64,000 nucleotides of DNA from Haloarchaeobius iranensis (GCF_900103505.1 NZ_FNIA01000009.1:62001-126000), one strand, 5' to 3'; shown: positions 54,403-63,958, counted from the stretch's first letter. Program-made: numbers and translations. Notes: a model not told the origin generated them from the letters alone.

Positions 54403-55788
54403 ATGGACGATACATCGAAATATCTCATTCACGCGACGGTAACGGCCGACGGGGTGGTCGAGCGGAGTGACGTCGTCGGAGCCATCTTCGGCCAGACCGA
54501 GGGGCTCCTCGGCGACGAACTCGACCTCCGCGAGCTACAGCAGTCCTCGAAGGTCGGACGCATCGACGTCGAGATCGACAGCGAAGCGGGTCGCTCCCAC
54601 GGGAGCGTCACCATCGCCACGAGCCTGGACAAGGTAGCGACGGCGACCCTGGCGGCCGCACTGGAGTCGTTGACCCGCGTCGGCCCCTGCAAGGCGACGC
54701 TCGAGGTCGAGGACATCGAGGACGTGCGGGCGGCGAAGCGGCGCCGCGTCGTCGAGCGCGCGAAGGAGCTGCTCGCGACCGCCTTCGACGACTCGATGAT
54801 GAGTTCGGAGGAGATCCTCCGCGAGGTCCGCGAGCACGCCCGCGTCGCAGATATCTCCGAGTACGACGGGCTGCCCGCGGGGCCTCGGGTCGGAGAGAGC
54901 GACGCCATCGTCGTCGTCGAGGGGCGTGCCGACGTGCTCCAGCTCCTGAAGTACGGCATCAAGAACGCTATCGCCGTCGAGGGGACCGACGTGCCGGACG
55001 CGGTCGCGACGCTCACGCAGGACCGGACCGTCACCGCGTTCCTCGACGGCGACCGGGGCGGCGACCTCATCCTGAAGGAGCTCTCGCAGGTCGGCGAGGT
55101 CGACTACGTCGCGTTCGCGCCCGAGGGCAAGTCCGTCGAGGACCTGCTCCACCACGAGGTGTTCGAGGCGCTCCGCGAGAAGGTGCCGTTCTCCGTCGTC
55201 GCGGAGACCAGCGCGCCACACGAGGCGGTCGGCACGCGCGAGGCGGTCTCGATGTCGACGACGGAGAGCGACGGCGGCGCAACCGACTCGTGCGAGCCGT
55301 CGACGGCCGGTTCCGCCGGTGTGGCCACGGAGGTCGTCGAGGCGCCGCCCGAGGCCGTGGAGACGGCGGCCGACGGAGTCACCGCCGAGACGGCCGCGCC
55401 CCAGTCGACCCCCGCCGAGTCGACCGACCCGGAGACGACCGCCGAGGAGTCGACGGCGACTGAACCGGCCGACGAGCAGGCTCCGGTGGACACACTTCGG
55501 GGCCACGTCGAGGCGGTCGTCGCCGCCGGCACCGGACAGGTCAGGCTGCTCGACGAGGAGTTCGCCGCCATCGTGGAGGGCCCGGCCAGCGAGGCGTTCG
55601 ACCGCGTCCGCGAGGCCGAGACGGTGCCCCACGCCGTCGTTCTCGATGGCGAGCTGAGCCAGCGCGTGCTCGACGTGTCTGCCCAGCGTGGCGTCGACCA
55701 CGTCGTCGCCGCGTCGCTCGGCGAGTTCGTGAAGCGACCGACCGGAACCAGAATCCGCACCGCCGAACGCCTCCTCGGAGGCAGCTAG
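54403..55788 (+). CDS. dnaG: Archaeal DnaG-like primase / exosome-associated protein
   Basis: The 461-residue protein has the archaeal DnaG start (KYLIHATVTADGVVERSDVVGAIFGQ in full; quoted KYLIHATVTADGVVE), a TOPRIM domain (about 165-245) with Glu173 (VVVEGRADV) and Asp215/Asp217 (LDGDRGGD), a low-complexity Thr/Glu/Ala linker (about 265-365) and a C-terminal domain (about 370-461). Archaeal DnaG can prime DNA but is best known as a subunit of the RNA exosome with Csl4 and Rrp41/42. It overlaps the convergent acetyltransferase gene by 4 nt. The leader has three hairpins. Confidence 0.92.
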   Translation: MDDTSKYLIHATVTADGVVERSDVVGAIFGQTEGLLGDELDLRELQQSSKVGRIDVEIDSEAGRSHGSVTIATSLDKVATATLAAALESLTRVGPCKATLEVEDIEDVRAAKRRRVVERAKELLATAFDDSMMSSEEILREVREHARVADISEYDGLPAGPRVGESDAIVVVEGRADVLQLLKYGIKNAIAVEGTDVPDAVATLTQDRTVTAFLDGDRGGDLILKELSQVGEVDYVAFAPEGKSVEDLLHHEVFEALREKVPFSVVAETSAPHEAVGTREAVSMSTTESDGGATDSCEPSTAGSAGVATEVVEAPPEAVETAADGVTAETAAPQSTPAESTDPETTAEESTATEPADEQAPVDTLRGHVEAVVAAGTGQVRLLDEEFAAIVEGPASEAFDRVREAETVPHAVVLDGELSQRVLDVSAQRGVDHVVAASLGEFVKRPTGTRIRTAERLLGGS

Positions 55789-56215: not shown

Positions 56216-57595
56216 TCACGGGAGCGTCGCCCCGCCGACCACGAACGCGACGAGCACCGCGACGACGGCCCCGGCGAGGGTGGCGAAGAAGTTCACGCCC
56301 TGGTTGCCGAGGAAGTCGCCCTCGAGCGTCGCCCCGAGCAGGCTGTCGACGGTCATCCCGCCGATGCCGGCGACGAGCACCACCCCTGCGCCGGTGGTCG
56401 AGACCGTCACCGAGCCGTCGAGCGCCGGGAAGACGAGGAACGAGATGGTGGCGACGACCGTCGCGCCGACGATGCCGGCGAGCTCGCCCTGCCAGGTCAC
56501 CGCCCCGTCCGTGCCGGGCTCGACGGGCTGGAGCGTCGTGATGAGCCGCGGCGAGTCGAACACCGCGCCGATCTCGCTGGAGAGGGTGTCGCTGAGTGCC
56601 GTGGCGATGGAGCCCGCGAACGCGAACAGGAAGATGGTGCCGTCGACGCGAAGCAGCGCCACACCGGGGTCAGCGGCGGCGAACCCCAGCACGGCGACGA
56701 TGGCGACCGCGGCGTTCCCGAGGACGTTCCCGGTTCCCCGTGCCCCCTCGTTGTCCTCCGCGATGCCCCGGGCAGCCTTCGTGTCGTAGCGGTACTTCGT
56801 GGAGAGCGCGCCGATCGCGAAAAAGGAGATGAGGACCGTGAACCAGCCGATGCCGCCGAGGACGATAGTGAGGATGGAGAGCAGGACGCCCGTCAGCATC
56901 CCCTCGACGGAGGCGGTCTGCAGGGCGAAGGAGAGGTAGCCGAGGACGAGTGTGACCCCGAGTGCGGCCGCGATCTCCTGGTTGTGGACCGCGGGTGCGA
57001 GCTCGAACAGCAGCCAGAGCAGGAGACCGACCGAGAACAGCACCAGCGGGTCGTCCCGCTCGAACAGCGCGGCACGCAGCAGCGCCCCGAGGAACGCGCC
57101 GCTGACGGCCAGGAACACGACCTTCGGGAGCGTCCCCGCGAGTGGCTGGTCGAGCAGCACGCGAGCCACCAGCTGCCCGGCGATGCCCGCGGTGATGCCG
57201 CCGGCGACGAAGCCGGCGCTGACGTGGAACGGGTTCGGGTACCGCGTCTTGACCAGCTCCGACGCCAGGTTGCCGTAGACGAGGAGGAGGACGGTGCCGA
57301 CGAACACGTCCACCTGGAGCGGTGGCACCCGACCGGTGCCGACCAGGTCGGTCACGGTCAACAGGCCGAGGCCGACGACCGCGAGCCCGAAGCCGATGAG
57401 GCCGAACAGGCGCTGCTCCTTCCGGTCGCCGGGACGAGCGAACAGTTCGAAGAGCGGGCCGTCGGTGACGACGGCGGCACCGACGAGCACGGCTGCGGCG
57501 ACGGTCATCGCCGCCTCCGGCCCGACCGCTGGCAGGAGCAGTACCAGCGAGCCGACCGCCGCGAACGCACCCGCACGTCGAACTGGTGAAGTCAC
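56216..57595 (-). CDS. DUF92-family integral membrane protein (phytyl-phosphate-kinase-like)
   Basis: The 459-residue protein has about twelve membrane spans and the DUF92 core in the second half (LTIVLGGIGWFTVLISFFAIGALSTKYRY..., broken; ARGTGNVLGNAAVAI; SIATALSDTLSSEIGA; GGMTVDSLLGATLEGDFLGNQG). Plant VTE6, the phytyl-phosphate kinase, belongs to this family, so a role in phosphorylating an isoprenoid alcohol or its monophosphate is a fair inference. The N-terminal ~220 residues resemble a dolichol-kinase-like membrane module and make it longer than bacterial DUF92 proteins. The neighbouring cis-prenyltransferase genes support a lipid-carrier role. Confidence 0.75.
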   Translation of the reverse strand: MTSPVRRAGAFAAVGSLVLLLPAVGPEAAMTVAAAVLVGAAVVTDGPLFELFARPGDRKEQRLFGLIGFGLAVVGLGLLTVTDLVGTGRVPPLQVDVFVGTVLLLVYGNLASELVKTRYPNPFHVSAGFVAGGITAGIAGQLVARVLLDQPLAGTLPKVVFLAVSGAFLGALLRAALFERDDPLVLFSVGLLLWLLFELAPAVHNQEIAAALGVTLVLGYLSFALQTASVEGMLTGVLLSILTIVLGGIGWFTVLISFFAIGALSTKYRYDTKAARGIAEDNEGARGTGNVLGNAAVAIVAVLGFAAADPGVALLRVDGTIFLFAFAGSIATALSDTLSSEIGAVFDSPRLITTLQPVEPGTDGAVTWQGELAGIVGATVVATISFLVFPALDGSVTVSTTGAGVVLVAGIGGMTVDSLLGATLEGDFLGNQGVNFFATLAGAVVAVLVAFVVGGATLP

Positions 57596-57707: not shown

Positions 57708-59105
57708 ATGGTGTCTCCGCCGGACCCGTCCGCGCTCCTCGACTACACACAGGCGAAGCTCACGCTCGTCGACGAGGAGGGCACGATTACGTACGTCAAC
57801 GCCGCCGCCGGCCGGATTCTGGGGTACGAACCGGAGACACTCGTCGGCACCGACGCCTTCGAACACGTCCACCCGGAGGACCGCGAGCGCGTGGTGGCTG
57901 CCTTCGAAGAGGTCGTCGCCGACGAGCCCGATGCGACCTCGTTCATCGAGTACCGCTACGGGACGGTGGACGACGACTGGGTCTGGCTGCAGAGTCGCCT
58001 CACCGAACTCGAAGAGGCCGACGTGGACGGCTACGTCGTCAGCTCTCACGACGTGACCGAGCGTATCGAGGCGGAGCGCGAGCGCCAGAACACCGAGACG
58101 CGACTGCAGGAGATCGCCGCGAAGACCGGCGACGTGCTGTGGATGTTCAGCGGTGACTGGTCGGAGTGCCTCTTCGTCAACCCGGCCTACGAGTCGGTCT
58201 ACGGACTGCCGGTCGAGACGCTGCACGACGACCCCTGGAGCTTCCTCGACGCTGTCCACCCGGACGACGTGCGCGCCGTCGAGGCGGAGATGCGACGGCT
58301 GTCGGGCGGCGAGGCCGTGGACCTGGAGTACCGGGTGAACCCCGACCGCGAGTACCGACGCTGGGCGTGGGTGCAGGCCGAGCCGGTCGTCGTCGACGGC
58401 GAGGTCGAGCGCATCGTCGGGTTCAGCCGAGACGTGACCGAGCGACGCCGCCGCGAACAACAGCTCGCGGTGATGGACAAGCTCCTCCGACACAACATCC
58501 GGAACGATATGAACGTCGTCATCGGCGAGGCCGAGCACATCGACGCCGAAGACGGCTCCACCCTCTCCGAGCGGACGCGAGTCATCCGCGACACCGCTGC
58601 CCAGCTCATCATGACCGCGGAGAAGCAGCGGGAGATAATCGAACTCCTGACAGACCCCGGCACGCTGGGCGAGGTCGACATCACCGCGGCCGTCACCCGG
58701 GTGGGCGGGCGGATGCGCGAGCGGTACCCGGACGCCGAGGTCGAGATCGACGTGCCCGAGCGGGCCACGGCGTTCGCGCTCCCCGGCATCGAGACCGCGA
58801 TCGCCGAACTCGCCGAGAACGCCATCGTCCACGCGACCGGGGGGCCGCCGACGCTCCGGCTCGTCTGCCGGACGACGGAGGAGTCGGTGGCTGTCGAGGT
58901 CCTCGACGACTGCGAGCCGATTCCGGAGTACGAGTACCGGGTCATCACCGGCGAGCACGAGATGGACGACCTGTACCACAGCAGCGGCGTCGGCCTCTGG
59001 CTCGTCTACTGGCTCGTCGAGCTCTCCGACGGGGACATCGAGTTCGAGACGCTGGAGAGCTCGGGCAACCGCGTCCAGCTCACCTTCACCAGGGTGACCG
59101 ACTGA
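57708..59105 (+). CDS. PAS-PAS sensor histidine kinase, soluble
   Basis: The 465-residue protein has two PAS domains (about 10-120: LTLVDEEGTITYVNAAAGRILGY; and 130-245: LWMFSGDWSECLFVNPAYESVYG), a HisKA-type dimer helix with His262 (LLRHNIRNDM, the haloarchaeal H-box) and a HATPase domain (about 355-465) with N-box AELAENAIVHA, G1-like LDDCEPI and SGVGLWLVYWLV. No membrane spans, so it senses a cytoplasmic signal. No response regulator is adjacent. A 14-bp palindrome abuts its start. Confidence 0.88.
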   Translation: MVSPPDPSALLDYTQAKLTLVDEEGTITYVNAAAGRILGYEPETLVGTDAFEHVHPEDRERVVAAFEEVVADEPDATSFIEYRYGTVDDDWVWLQSRLTELEEADVDGYVVSSHDVTERIEAERERQNTETRLQEIAAKTGDVLWMFSGDWSECLFVNPAYESVYGLPVETLHDDPWSFLDAVHPDDVRAVEAEMRRLSGGEAVDLEYRVNPDREYRRWAWVQAEPVVVDGEVERIVGFSRDVTERRRREQQLAVMDKLLRHNIRNDMNVVIGEAEHIDAEDGSTLSERTRVIRDTAAQLIMTAEKQREIIELLTDPGTLGEVDITAAVTRVGGRMRERYPDAEVEIDVPERATAFALPGIETAIAELAENAIVHATGGPPTLRLVCRTTEESVAVEVLDDCEPIPEYEYRVITGEHEMDDLYHSSGVGLWLVYWLVELSDGDIEFETLESSGNRVQLTFTRVTD

Positions 59106-59157: not shown

Positions 59158-59766
59158 GTGGGACTGTACGACCGCTACCTCGCCTATCGCATCCGTCGCG
59201 ACGAGGCCGCACCGCCGGCACACGTCGCGCTCGTCATCACGGAGCGTGACCTGCTGGAACAGGGTGCCTACGAGACGCTCTCGCGGTTCTTCGAGCTCAC
59301 CTTCGAGGTGGGAGCCGACCGCATCACGGTGTACGTCAGCGTCCTCGACGAGGCGGCGGCACCGACGCTCGCCCGCCAGTTCGACGACCTTGACGCACCG
59401 CGGCCGGTCGCGGTACGGGGGCCGGACGACGACGAGCGCGCGGACGCACCGATACAGGTGAGCATCGGTCTCGGCGGGAAACACGAGTTCACCGCGGCCG
59501 TCCAGGGCGTCGCGAAGGAGGTCTCGCGCGGCGAACTCGAGCCGGACGCGGTCGACGAGAGCGAGATCGACCGCCGGCTCGTGTTCCCCTCGGAGCCGGA
59601 CCTGGTCATCAAGACGGGCGCCGAGCGGCTCTCCGATTTCATGATCTGGCAGTCCGTCTACTCGGAGCTCTACTTCACCGACCTCAACTGGCGGGACTTC
59701 CGCGACAGGGACTTCTACCGGGCCATCCGGGAGTACCAGAACCGACAGCGCAGGTTCGGCCGGTAG
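59158..59766 (+). CDS. Degenerate cis-prenyltransferase homologue (NgBR-like, lacking catalytic Asp)
   Basis: The 202-residue protein starts at GTG 59158 and is homologous to polyprenyl diphosphate synthase, but its N-terminal motif reads HVALVITERDLL where active enzymes have HVAVIxDGNRRYA; the catalytic Asp corresponds to Thr28. It is shorter (about 250 is usual). The C-terminus, in contrast, is well kept: VIKTGAERLSDF, WQSVYSELYFTDLNWRDF, FYRAIREYQNRQRRFG. This combination is like the regulatory Nus1/NgBR subunits of eukaryotic dehydrodolichyl diphosphate synthase. A canonical paralogue lies at 63035-63958. Confidence 0.75.
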   Translation: MGLYDRYLAYRIRRDEAAPPAHVALVITERDLLEQGAYETLSRFFELTFEVGADRITVYVSVLDEAAAPTLARQFDDLDAPRPVAVRGPDDDERADAPIQVSIGLGGKHEFTAAVQGVAKEVSRGELEPDAVDESEIDRRLVFPSEPDLVIKTGAERLSDFMIWQSVYSELYFTDLNWRDFRDRDFYRAIREYQNRQRRFGR

Positions 59767-59842
59767 GCAGGGAGGAGCCGTCGTGGACGGACGACGGGAG
59801 CCCTGGACCCCCTGGATGTTCTGGCCGGGAAAACGAGGGGGT

Positions 59843-59849
59843 GTTTTAG
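59843..59849 (+). promoter_or_regulatory. TATA box of the DUF4129-DUF58 operon
   Basis: GTTTTAG, about 29 nt before ATG 59878, giving a leaderless operon mRNA. Confidence 0.45.
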
Positions 59850-59877
59850 GGCGGTCCGGCTCCTCGGGTCGACCGTG

Positions 59878-60699
59878 ATGCGACGCGCCCTCCAGACGGT
59901 CGCGATAGCGCTGCTGGTCACCGCCGCGCTCGGGGTGGCCGCCGGCTCGCTGGGCGGGCTCTCGGCGGACCTCGGCCCGGACGAGGGCGGGGTCAGGTCG
60001 CCCGACGACCCCGGCGACGGGTCGGCACCGTCGAGCGCGGCGACGGGCGGCGACAGCATCGGACAGGCGACGTACCTCCGGCTGCTCGCCGCGCTCCTCG
60101 CGACCGCGCTGGTCTGTTGCTACGTGCTGTTCCCCAGCTACCGCCGGGTGGTCGTCCTCACGGGCGGTGCCGGAACCGTCGGTGCGGCCGGCTACCTGCT
60201 GTACCGGCCGAGTGCGACGGTCTCGGTACCCACGTTCGGAACGAGCGACGCGCTCGGGCTGGTGGGCGCCGGCGTGCTGGTCGGGCTGGTCCTCGCCGGC
60301 GCAGGCCTGCTCTGGCGGTTCGACGGACTGGCGTCCCGCGGCGGACGGTCCGGTGACGACGAGCGGCCGACCCCCGGCGGGGAACGCCACCGGGAGGCGG
60401 GCGAGCATCCGGCCAGCGCCCCGGCCGACGATCCGGTCCGGCAGGCCTGGCAGCGGATGGTCGCCGACCTCCGGCCGCCTTCGCCGGGGGCCCGGACGCC
60501 GGGCGAGTTCGCGGACACGGCGAAGGACGCCGGTCGCGACCCCGACGCGGTGGACCGGTTGACCAGCCTGTTCCGGGCGGTGCGCTACGGGCGCCGCGAG
60601 CCCGACGAGTGCAGGGACGAGGCGCGGCGGCTCGCCGACCGGGCGGCGGGCGACGAGACCGCGGTCCCGACGGACGGAGCCGCCGGGGGAGAGCGATGA
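59878..60699 (+). CDS. DUF4129-domain membrane protein
   Basis: The 273-residue protein has an N-terminal signal/anchor span, two to three further spans (about 65-155), and a cytoplasmic C-terminal DUF4129 domain (about 180-265: QAWQRMVADL, RTPGEFADTA, LTSLFRAVRYG). In bacteria and haloarchaea DUF4129 is encoded with MoxR ATPase and DUF58 proteins in a stress or cell-surface protein-maturation system. Start GTG 59875 or ATG 59878; the ATG is used. Its stop overlaps the next ATG (ATGA). Confidence 0.8.
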   Translation: MRRALQTVAIALLVTAALGVAAGSLGGLSADLGPDEGGVRSPDDPGDGSAPSSAATGGDSIGQATYLRLLAALLATALVCCYVLFPSYRRVVVLTGGAGTVGAAGYLLYRPSATVSVPTFGTSDALGLVGAGVLVGLVLAGAGLLWRFDGLASRGGRSGDDERPTPGGERHREAGEHPASAPADDPVRQAWQRMVADLRPPSPGARTPGEFADTAKDAGRDPDAVDRLTSLFRAVRYGRREPDECRDEARRLADRAAGDETAVPTDGAAGGER

Positions 60700-61268
60700 G
60701 CCGGCTCCCGACCCCCCGCGGACTGCTGCTCGCGGTCGGTCTCTCGTTGCTCGCGGCGGGACTGCTCGGGACCGTCGCGCCCGGACTCGTCGTCGGGGAC
60801 GGCGCTGCGCTGGTCGTCCTCGTCGGAGGGAGCGTCTCGGCGGTCGCGCTGGCGCTCGTCTACGCGCGGACGGACACCCGAGCGCGAGTCGCACGCGTCA
60901 CCCGTCCGGAGCGGACCGGGCCGCGCGTGCCCGGACGGGACGCCGAGGACCTGCTCGCCGACGTGACCGCGGCGGGGCGCGTCCGGGGCGGCGATGCCCG
61001 CGAGGACGTGTACGAACGACTCACCGCGGTCGCGGTCGAGACGCTCGTCGCTCGCTACGACTGCACACCGGCCGAGGCGCGCCGGCGACTCGAGGCGGGG
61101 TCGTGGACCGACGACCCGCTCGCGGCGGCGCTGTTCATCGACGGCGTCGACCCCGGGTGGACGACGCGGGACCGGCTCCGGACGCTCGTGACCGGCGAGC
61201 CACCGCTCCGCCGACGCGCCCGACACGCGCTCTCGGAGCTCGCGGCCATCGCGGGAGGGGAGCGATGA
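60696..61268 (+). CDS. Two-span membrane protein of the DUF58 operon (DUF7269-type)
   Basis: The 190-residue protein has two N-terminal spans (about 8-28 and 33-55) and a soluble helical C-terminal domain (about 70-185, ERLTAVAVETLVARYDCTPAEARRRLEAG). It matches the small membrane protein regularly found between DUF4129 and DUF58 genes in haloarchaea, probably DUF7269. ATGA overlaps at both ends show strict translational coupling. Confidence 0.75.
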   Translation: MSRLPTPRGLLLAVGLSLLAAGLLGTVAPGLVVGDGAALVVLVGGSVSAVALALVYARTDTRARVARVTRPERTGPRVPGRDAEDLLADVTAAGRVRGGDAREDVYERLTAVAVETLVARYDCTPAEARRRLEAGSWTDDPLAAALFIDGVDPGWTTRDRLRTLVTGEPPLRRRARHALSELAAIAGGER

Positions 61269-62518
61269 GCTGGCACCGGACGGCGACGGACCGCTGGCGC
61301 TGGCTCGTCCCGGTCGCCCTCGTGCTCGCGCCGGTCGGCGTCGTCTCGGCGACGCCGGCGGTCGTGCTCTGTGCGGTCGTCTGCGTCGGCGTCGCGGCGT
61401 TCGCCCGTGCGTCGCCCGCCCCGGAACCGGCCGTCGACTGCGAGCGCCGATTCAGAGAGCGCGACGACGGCACCGTCGCCGTGTCGCTCCGGGTCGAGAA
61501 CGAGGGCAGCGCCGCCCTGCCGGACGTTCGGGTCGTCGACGGCGTCCCGGCGGACTGTACGGTGCTGGACGGCACGCCCGAACTCGCCTGCTCGCTGCCG
61601 GCGGGGGCGTCGCGAACGCTGTGCTACCGCGTCGAGTCACCCGAATCGACACGCCGGTTCGACGACCCGTTCGTCGTGGTCGCGGACCGGGCCGGGCGGG
61701 TCGAGCTCGACGCACGGGTCGACGCCGGCGCGGACCGACTCGGGAGTTCCCGTCCCCTGCCGGACGCCGAACCAGTCGCGCTGCGCCCGCCGACGGGTGG
61801 CCCGCCCGGGCCACTGACCGGCACCGAAGCCGGTCAGGGGCTCGCGTTCCACTCGGTCCGCGAGTACCGCCGCGGCGACCCCCTCGGCCGGGTGGACTGG
61901 TCGCGGTTCGCCCGCACCGGCGACCTCTCGACGGTGACGTTCCGCGCCGAGCGCGCCCCGACGGTGGTGCTGGTCGTCGACGCACGGCCCGCCGCCTACG
62001 TGGCACGGGCGCCAGACGCGACGGGGGCACGCGACCACGCCGTCGACGCCGCACGGGCGCTCGTCACCGGACTGGCGGACGCGCAGGTCGGCCTCGCGGT
62101 GCTCGGGTCGGGTGTGTCGTGGACGCCGCCGGGGACCGGACGGGCACACCGGGCCCGGCTCCGACGCGAGCTCGACACCGACCCCGCGCTGGTCGCGCCA
62201 CCCGAGGGAGACGACCCCGCGGTCGACCCCCTGGCGACGACGCTCCGGGCGCGGACGCCGGCCGACGCACAGCTCTGCCTGCTGACGCCGCTCTGTGACG
62301 ACGCCGTGGCGACGCTGGCTCGACGGCTCGACACCGGCGGGACACCCGTCTCCGTGGTGAGTCCGGACCCGACGACGACCGACGGGCCGGGGGCCCAGCT
62401 CGCGCATCTGGAGCGCGGTGCGCGGGTCCGTGACCTCCGACGGGCCGGGATTCCGGTGCTCGACTGGACCGAGGGCGACGCTCGCGAGGCGTTCGCCCGC
62501 GCGGGGTGGGCCAGATGA
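61265..62518 (+). CDS. DUF58 (vWA-like) protein
   Basis: The 417-residue protein has two N-terminal spans (about 15-55), a beta domain (about 60-170) and a DUF58/vWA-like region with the signature GQGLAFHSVREYRRGDPLGRVDW (about 195-215, partly quoted) and APTVVLVVDARPAAY. DUF58 proteins partner with MoxR-type AAA ATPases. A MoxR gene is not present in the window. The start overlaps the previous stop (ATGA). Confidence 0.85.
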   Translation: MSWHRTATDRWRWLVPVALVLAPVGVVSATPAVVLCAVVCVGVAAFARASPAPEPAVDCERRFRERDDGTVAVSLRVENEGSAALPDVRVVDGVPADCTVLDGTPELACSLPAGASRTLCYRVESPESTRRFDDPFVVVADRAGRVELDARVDAGADRLGSSRPLPDAEPVALRPPTGGPPGPLTGTEAGQGLAFHSVREYRRGDPLGRVDWSRFARTGDLSTVTFRAERAPTVVLVVDARPAAYVARAPDATGARDHAVDAARALVTGLADAQVGLAVLGSGVSWTPPGTGRAHRARLRRELDTDPALVAPPEGDDPAVDPLATTLRARTPADAQLCLLTPLCDDAVATLARRLDTGGTPVSVVSPDPTTTDGPGAQLAHLERGARVRDLRRAGIPVLDWTEGDAREAFARAGWAR

Positions 62519-63033
62519 GCCTGCCGTCGCCCGACCGTGGGGAGCGAAACGGCTCCAGCCCGACCGGCGGCACGCCCGCGGTGCTCCTCGCGCTCGTCGC
62601 CGCGCTCGCCGCGACGTTCGTCGCCGCGGTGACCGTCCCCGGCACCGCGATCGCCGTCGCGGGGACCGCCGCGCTCGGGGCCGGCACCGTCCACGACGGT
62701 CGCCGGACGCGCCTCGCCGGGGGCGCGCTGCTGCTCGGGGCCGTCGCCTACGGCGCGTACGGGGGGCTCCCGATACCGGTCGTCCTCGGTGGCACTGTCG
62801 CCGCACTGGTCGCCATCGACGGCGCGGAGCGGGCGGTCGCTCTCGACGCGCAGGTGCCCGACGCCGCGACGGCCCGCCTCGTCCTCCGGCGGACGGGCAC
62901 CACGCTGGTCGTCGCGACGGTCGTGGCCGGACTCGGCTACGGTGCCTACCGGGTCGGCTCCGGCGAGGCACCGGCCGCCGCGGCCGCGCTGCTGCTCGTC
63001 GGTGCGTTGCTGTCGGCGGCCGCGCTCAGGTAG
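62515..63033 (+). CDS. Polytopic membrane protein at end of DUF58 operon (DUF7519-type)
   Basis: The 172-residue protein has five to six hydrophobic spans rich in Ala/Gly/Val and no catalytic motif. It is the last gene in the haloarchaeal DUF4129-DUF7269-DUF58 set and fits the small DUF7519-type protein known from that context. ATGA overlap with DUF58; 1-nt gap to the convergent uppS gene. Confidence 0.7.
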   Translation: MSLPSPDRGERNGSSPTGGTPAVLLALVAALAATFVAAVTVPGTAIAVAGTAALGAGTVHDGRRTRLAGGALLLGAVAYGAYGGLPIPVVLGGTVAALVAIDGAERAVALDAQVPDAATARLVLRRTGTTLVVATVVAGLGYGAYRVGSGEAPAAAAALLLVGALLSAAALR

Positions 63034-63034
63034 C

Positions 63035-63958
63035 TCAGTCCGCCGTCGCCGACTCCTCGGCGACGCGGGAGGCCTCGTCGTGCTCACTACCCGAGAGCGA
63101 GTCGCGGAACTTCCGCACGACGGTGGTCGCCTCGGCGAGCTCTGTCGTCCCGAACGCCTTCACCAGCGCGAGCGCCCGCCGGGCGCGGGTGCGCCGCCAG
63201 GACTGCTCGCGGTTCTCGTAGGTCCGGATCGCCCGGAGGAAGTCCACTTTCGAGAACTCCGGCCAGTACGGCGCACAGAAGAAGACGGCGGCCTCGTTGC
63301 CGTTGGCGTGCCACGGCAGGAAGTTCGAGGTGCGCTCCGCGCCGCCGGTTCGGATGATGAGGTCCACGTCCCGGACCGGCTGCCCGTAGAGGCGGTCCTC
63401 GACGGTCTCGACGGTCACCTCCTCGGGCTCGAGTTCGCCGTCGTCCACGGCGCGGGCGATCTGCTGTGCGGCGGTCAGCAGCTCGTTCCGGCCGCCGTAG
63501 GCCAGCGCGATGTTGAGGACGAACTCGTCGTAGCCGCGGGTCCGCTCCTCGGCGTGGCGGACGGCGGAGCGGACCCGCTCGGGGAGCATCCCGGCGTCGC
63601 CGATGACCCGGATGGCGACCTCGTTCTCGTGGATCTGTTCGTGGTCCGCGAAGTCCCGCAGCTTCTCGGCCATCAGGTCGAACAGCGGGTCGAGCTCCTC
63701 CTGTGGCCGCTCGAAGTTCTCGGTGGAGAAGGTGTACAGGGTCAGTTCCTCGACACCGATGTCGCGGCACCACTCGAGTATCTCCTCGCTGGTCTTGGCA
63801 CCCGCTTTGTGCCCGTCCGGCGCGTCGTCCCCGCGCTGTCGGGCGTATCTGCGGTTCCCGTCCTGGATGACCGCGACGTGGGCCGGCGAGCCGGATATCT
63901 CGCGCTTGAGCAGTTGCTCGTACGCCGACTGCCATCGCTCCCGCACCCACGCTCGCAT
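63035..63958 (-). CDS. uppS: cis-Polyprenyl diphosphate synthase, canonical
   Basis: The 307-residue protein has the catalytic motif HVAVIQDGNRRYARQRG with Asp33, then HKAGAKTSEEILEWC, LTLYTFSTENFERP, LNIALAYGGRNEL and LIIRTGGAERTSNF. It condenses isopentenyl diphosphate onto an allylic primer to make the polyprenyl carrier for N-glycosylation (dolichol in haloarchaea). It has a C-terminal tail of about 50 residues (TELAEATTVVRKFRDS...). The gene is convergent with the DUF58 operon. A non-catalytic paralogue lies at 59158. Confidence 0.9.
   Translation of the reverse strand: MRAWVRERWQSAYEQLLKREISGSPAHVAVIQDGNRRYARQRGDDAPDGHKAGAKTSEEILEWCRDIGVEELTLYTFSTENFERPQEELDPLFDLMAEKLRDFADHEQIHENEVAIRVIGDAGMLPERVRSAVRHAEERTRGYDEFVLNIALAYGGRNELLTAAQQIARAVDDGELEPEEVTVETVEDRLYGQPVRDVDLIIRTGGAERTSNFLPWHANGNEAAVFFCAPYWPEFSKVDFLRAIRTYENREQSWRRTRARRALALVKAFGTTELAEATTVVRKFRDSLSGSEHDEASRVAEESATAD

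Follow-up and report, generated by a model that had tools for sequence, protein, structure and literature searches.

Two complementary genes of Haloarchaeobius iranensis very probably encode the halves of a heteromeric cis-prenyltransferase

Two genes in a 64,000-nucleotide stretch of the genome of Haloarchaeobius iranensis, the whole of which is called the window here, very probably each encode one half of a heteromeric cis-prenyltransferase (cPT) built on the plan of DHDDS/NgBR. One protein, termed the live subunit, has the catalytic motif and lacks the C-terminal RXG motif, while the other, termed the dead subunit, ends in RXG and lacks the catalytic motif. The two proteins are expected to form a physical complex whose activity needs both, and the length and use of the product given below are likewise predictions. 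Family models treat the live protein as an ordinary UppS that acts alone, and they assign the dead one to the same family as an incomplete member. Should activity require the two together, work on the haloarchaeal N-glycosylation carrier must delete or express the genes as a pair.

Complementary motif loss in the two proteins

The features of the two genes, in window coordinates, are as follows.

59158..59766, plus strand: putative non-catalytic cPT subunit (NgBR/MM_1083-like), 202 aa, GTG start; C-terminal half of PF01255, phylum-wide orthologues, AlphaFold fold
59239..59253, plus strand: TERDL, residues 28-32, at the position of catalytic DGNRR in the E. coli UppS alignment
59749..59760, plus strand: C-terminal RRFG, the RXG motif, residues 198-201; RRxG-type tail in 34/34 dead subunits
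63035..63958, minus strand: putative catalytic cPT subunit (DHDDS/MM_0618-like), 307 aa; PF01255 1-216, profile and model matches to DHDDS
63848..63862, minus strand: catalytic DGNRR, residues 33-37; invariant in 34/34 live subunits
63326..63352, minus strand: IPP-binding segment RTGGAERTS, residues 203-211; R203/R209/S211 invariant, equivalent to UppS R194/R200/S202
63038..63202, minus strand: C-terminal extension of the live subunit without RXG, residues 253-307; from alignment and model

The 59158 protein matched the Pfam profile PF01255 only at positions 115-219 (E 6e-27), and it therefore has no recognisable catalytic N-terminal half. The match of the 63035 protein covered positions 1-216 of 219 (E 4e-71), so that it stops just short of the last three positions, those of RXG. 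The source genome, which is 99.9% complete, holds these two PF01255 genes and no third. In the alignment with E. coli UppS, DGNGR at 26-30 corresponds to T28-E-R-D-L32 in the 59158 protein and to D33-G-N-R-R37 in the 63035 protein. The earlier note had described the first protein as a C-terminal cPT half with RRFG and without DGNRR, and its partner as having DGNRR, and both descriptions were borne out by the alignment and the profile matches. In addition, UppS RRFG at 241-244 aligns with R198-R-F-G201 in the 59158 protein and with Q252-S-W-R in the 63035 protein. The absence of RXG from the live partner, which the earlier note did not state, is the key point. The 63035 protein keeps D33, N35, R37, H50, S78, N81, R84, R203, R209 and S211, and in the 59158 protein the IPP-phosphate site is partly retained (K152, R157 and S159). 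The homodimeric UppS/cPT enzymes of bacteria and most other archaea sampled share with the live subunit its fold and catalytic residues but carry DGNRR and RXG within one chain, which neither window protein does.

The two motifs were counted in a phylum-wide sample of 34 live and 34 dead proteins. DGNRR was present in 34/34 live and 0/34 dead subunits, and RXG, as an RRxG tail, in 0/34 live and 34/34 dead subunits. Both motifs were found in all 13 single-copy cPTs of other archaea (13/13 for each motif; Thermoplasmatota, Bathyarchaeota, Methanobacteriota and one nanoarchaeon) and in all of the bacterial cPTs (14/14 for each). Conservation of the C-terminal interface of the 59158 protein, the lack of which would have spoken against pairing according to the earlier note, was evident in 41-46 haloarchaeal orthologues (63-74% identity to the dead subunit of the window), in which the start, the length of 201-202 aa and residues R198, R199 and G201 are invariant. 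A pseudogene or decaying copy, which was also considered for 59158, is ruled out by this invariant length and C-terminus.

Structure models and proposed mechanism

The AlphaFold model of the dead subunit (pLDDT 83.6) has the cPT fold, with PDB matches that include DHDDS and NUS1, and the profile of the dead subunits matches NUS1 over its full length (E 2e-10). For the live subunit, DHDDS was the best PDB match both of the profile (human DHDDS first, E 2e-68) and of the model (pLDDT 78.2; DHDDS chains). The model of the live subunit also has helices at 237-270, 275-287 and 291-301, predicted with modest confidence; in the human catalytic subunit, a C-terminal helix-turn-helix joins two heterodimers. 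Several methanogen live subunits have no such C-terminal extension. The archaeal pair is like human DHDDS/NgBR (Rer2/Nus1 in yeast), in which a catalytic subunit without RXG is combined with an inactive relative ending in RXG. There are also differences: NgBR has a membrane-spanning N-terminus, whereas the model of the archaeal dead subunit has only a short N-terminal helix, and the archaeal live subunits carry a two-residue insertion in the ANGNE region that is absent from DHDDS in the alignment.

NgBR in the human enzyme reaches across the interface with its RxG tail, which enters the active site of DHDDS; there, the backbone nitrogens of the tail coordinate the phosphate in the IPP site, and the linker bearing an FPP-binding arginine is held by the carbonyls of the tail (PMC7573591). 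By analogy, the conserved archaeal RRFG tail would fit this role. In the proposed mechanism, the 63035 protein would bind the allylic starter and IPP and do the chemistry through DGNRR, S78/N81 and R203/R209/S211; it has lost the RXG tail, with which single-chain cPTs seal off their active site. For its part, the 59158 protein, with a cPT fold, a conserved dimer-side C-terminal half and no catalytic residues, would pair with the live subunit and insert its RRFG into the active site of this partner, in the manner of NgBR with DHDDS. The predicted product is a polyprenyl diphosphate of about C45-C60, which may then give rise to the dolichyl phosphate carrier for N-glycosylation.

Orthology with a heteromeric enzyme of Methanosarcina mazei

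The genome G266 encodes a protein that shares 199/200 residues with MM_0014, the crystallised protein of M. mazei, and it must therefore come from M. mazei or its nearest kin. This genome has exactly two further PF01255 genes, one of the live type and one of the dead type ending in RRYGK, which are 48% and 40% identical to the live and dead proteins of the window, respectively. According to a later text by an overlapping group of authors, the remaining two cPT paralogues of M. mazei, MM_0618 and MM_1083, assemble into a heteromeric cPT with products of C45-50 (Emi et al. 2019, cited in PMC8131916). From the spacing of the genes in G266, assuming even numbering along a chromosome of 4.1 Mb, we infer that MM_0618 is the live and MM_1083 the dead subunit. 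Identity and shared clades indicate orthology between the window pair and the M. mazei pair for which a heteromer is reported, with the motifs split in the same way. Because such an enzyme was reported in 2019, a heteromeric archaeal cPT is not new in principle. The two systems nevertheless differ in that the cPT pair and DUF92 are unlinked in the family of Methanosarcina, whereas the haloarchaeal pair is usually tail-to-tail and beside DUF92, and the C-terminal ends of the M. mazei and haloarchaeal live subunits are also different.

The M. mazei proteins bear on another explanation, in which the live protein alone forms a homodimer whose altered C-terminus closes the site, the 59158 protein being a non-essential regulator or membrane tether. 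MM_0014 of M. mazei lacks RXG and is an active homodimer (PMC8131916), and a live protein that has lost RXG need thus not depend on a partner; the live window protein also passes the score cut-off of TIGR00055 (uppS), so that automated families class it as an ordinary uppS. However, the C-terminus of the live subunits varies in length and sequence past the last common helix, and there was no TLGG-like tail shared among the live subunits, while the RRxG ending was kept in 34/34 dead subunits. Considering in addition that PMC8131916 describes the M. mazei orthologues of the two proteins as a heteromer, we regard the homodimer as quite improbable. The proposal of the earlier note, a heteromer on the plan of Nus1/NgBR-DHDDS, is instead supported by the complementary motif loss, the absence of any other cPT from the genome and the M. 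mazei orthology, and the complex itself is predicted from these lines of evidence.

Distribution of the split across archaea

Exactly two PF01255 matches were found in 93 of 97 genomes (45 genera) of Halobacteria, the class of the window's genome, and among the matches listed, these pairs consisted of one full match (1-216) and one C-terminal half (about 115-219). The exceptions were one genome with a single match, of the dead type only, and three genomes with three matches. Two live-type genes were observed in the haloarchaeal genomes G061 and G068 (L019, L021), with three PF01255 matches each. In one haloarchaeon, the usual pair is joined by a divergent third cPT (L220, G002:C1:478925-479599; E 2e-29), which sits inside a 622-codon open frame.

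Two haloarchaeal profiles, one built from 41 dead and the other from 40 live proteins, were then used to search 197 genomes of the phylum. By profile score, with the exceptions inspected individually, both subunit types were present in about 189 of the 197 genomes. Three fragmented genomes had the live type only and one genome the dead type only, while no PF01255 gene was found in four genomes of one family (G103, G112, G121 and G129; 84-91% complete), in which the usual synthase of the carrier lipid may be absent or replaced. In two genomes of one family, the dead type is strongly diverged (PF01255 43-47 bits; L222 in G114 and L223 in G105) and the live type is normal.

In the Methanobacteriota, a complete 1-219 match was present in 100/100 genomes, with a second, partial match in only one. 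In the Thermoplasmatota, 94 of 98 genomes had a PF01255 match, mostly one each, and in the phylum of a Bathyarchaeota genome a match was found in 151/151 genomes, with a second one in only four. These single, complete cPTs indicate that the complementary loss is specific to the phylum of the window among those sampled. The distribution of the split is much wider and cleaner than we found described in the open literature searched. Four Thermoplasmatota genomes (G475, G476, G489 and G492) were observed to carry two full-length cPTs, one complete and the other with a match that stops at 215-218; this second protein possibly lacks RXG and would then be a possible independent step towards a heteromer.

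Phylogeny and the eukaryotic enzyme

A phylogenetic tree was built from 81 proteins, from which NUS1 was left out as very divergent. The dead subunits formed one clade (100/99) and the live subunits another (100/97), and both fell within a well-supported archaeal group. The single dead and the single live clade are accounted for by one split that preceded the radiation of the phylum. DHDDS was also placed inside the archaeal group, in a position without firm support. In AU tests, a sister relationship of the dead and live clades (p 0.20) was neither rejected nor shown, and the same holds for human DHDDS joining the live clade (p 0.34), so that the comparison of DHDDS/NgBR with the archaeal pair gave no evidence for a common origin of the split. 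The scenario that the split arose once in an archaeal ancestor, that eukaryotic DHDDS/NgBR descends from it and that DUF92 is an ancient companion is thus rather unlikely on present data. If the shared origin were true, the two-part dolichol synthase would be an archaeal inheritance rather than a eukaryotic invention, and with Asgard genomes a common or an independent origin of the split becomes testable. The phylum-wide split of one origin, set against the single-chain enzymes elsewhere in the sampled archaea, provides a natural parallel to DHDDS/NgBR.

Gene neighbourhood and DUF92

The following genes lie around and between the pair in the window, whose gene content reads as haloarchaeal.

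54403-55788, plus strand: archaeal DnaG-type primase gene
56216..57595, minus strand: DUF92 integral membrane protein (VTE6 family) and candidate for a third cassette member; PF01940 E 3e-56, gene context
57711-59105, plus strand: PAS-PAS histidine kinase gene, between DUF92 and the dead subunit
59875..63033, plus strand: operon of DUF4129, DUF7269, DUF58 and DUF7519, judged not part of the enzyme; Pfam, locus comparison

When linked, the cPT genes were always convergent, both in the haloarchaeal loci and in 36/36 linked cases outside Halobacteria, which come from 105 genomes with both genes listed; in 25 of these 36 cases, the gap between the matches was below 100 bases. Many methanogens, and a minority of the haloarchaea, have the two genes apart from each other, and thus close linkage is not required. 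We also considered that the 59158 protein has a separate job, such as binding isoprenoid phosphates or a glycosyltransferase, and that its cPT fold is a relic, with which the partly kept K152, R157 and S159 of the IPP-phosphate site would agree. However, the joint presence of the dead and live genes in nearly all genomes of the phylum (about 189/197), the recurrence of their tail-to-tail linkage and the retention of both the RXG tail and the dimer-side segment SELYFTDxNW make this scenario hardly credible.

The earlier note had included the membrane-protein operon with DUF58 in the same unit. This operon was absent between the pair in all 36 of the other haloarchaeal loci with the pair and was found there, among the genomes examined, in this one only, which argues for an unrelated insertion; other genomes carry different genes in the gap. 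The wider suggestion that the whole 55.8-64 kb stretch is one lipid-carrier locus was not upheld either, as none of DnaG, GNAT, the PAS kinase and the DUF58 operon is known to be connected with lipid carriers.

For DUF92, the outcome was mixed. The gene adjoins the dead gene divergently in 39/40 haloarchaeal loci and in 26/98 other genomes from nine families, always in divergent orientation; usually the two are direct neighbours, whereas in the window the PAS kinase gene separates them. This context supports a place for DUF92 in a lipid-carrier locus, as the earlier note had proposed. Counts of co-occurrence, which it had also suggested, gave DUF92 in 195 of the 197 phylum genomes, including the four without any cPT, while both genomes of one family with the cPT pair have no DUF92. 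DUF92 is therefore a recurrent neighbour that is not strictly tied to the cPT. The 56216 protein matches PF01940 as listed above and falls below the cut-off of TIGR00297. VTE6 belongs to DUF92. In plants, VTE6 is a phytyl-phosphate kinase (PMC10849223), and our literature search found no archaeal assay of isoprenyl-phosphate kinase activity for DUF92. From the gene context, the DUF92 protein might conceivably act on a polyprenyl or prenyl phosphate. As a recurrent neighbour, it offers a concrete candidate for a step in the archaeal metabolism of isoprenoid phosphates that still lacks an assigned protein. A DnaG-type primase gene was also observed near DUF92 in most of the haloarchaeal loci examined.
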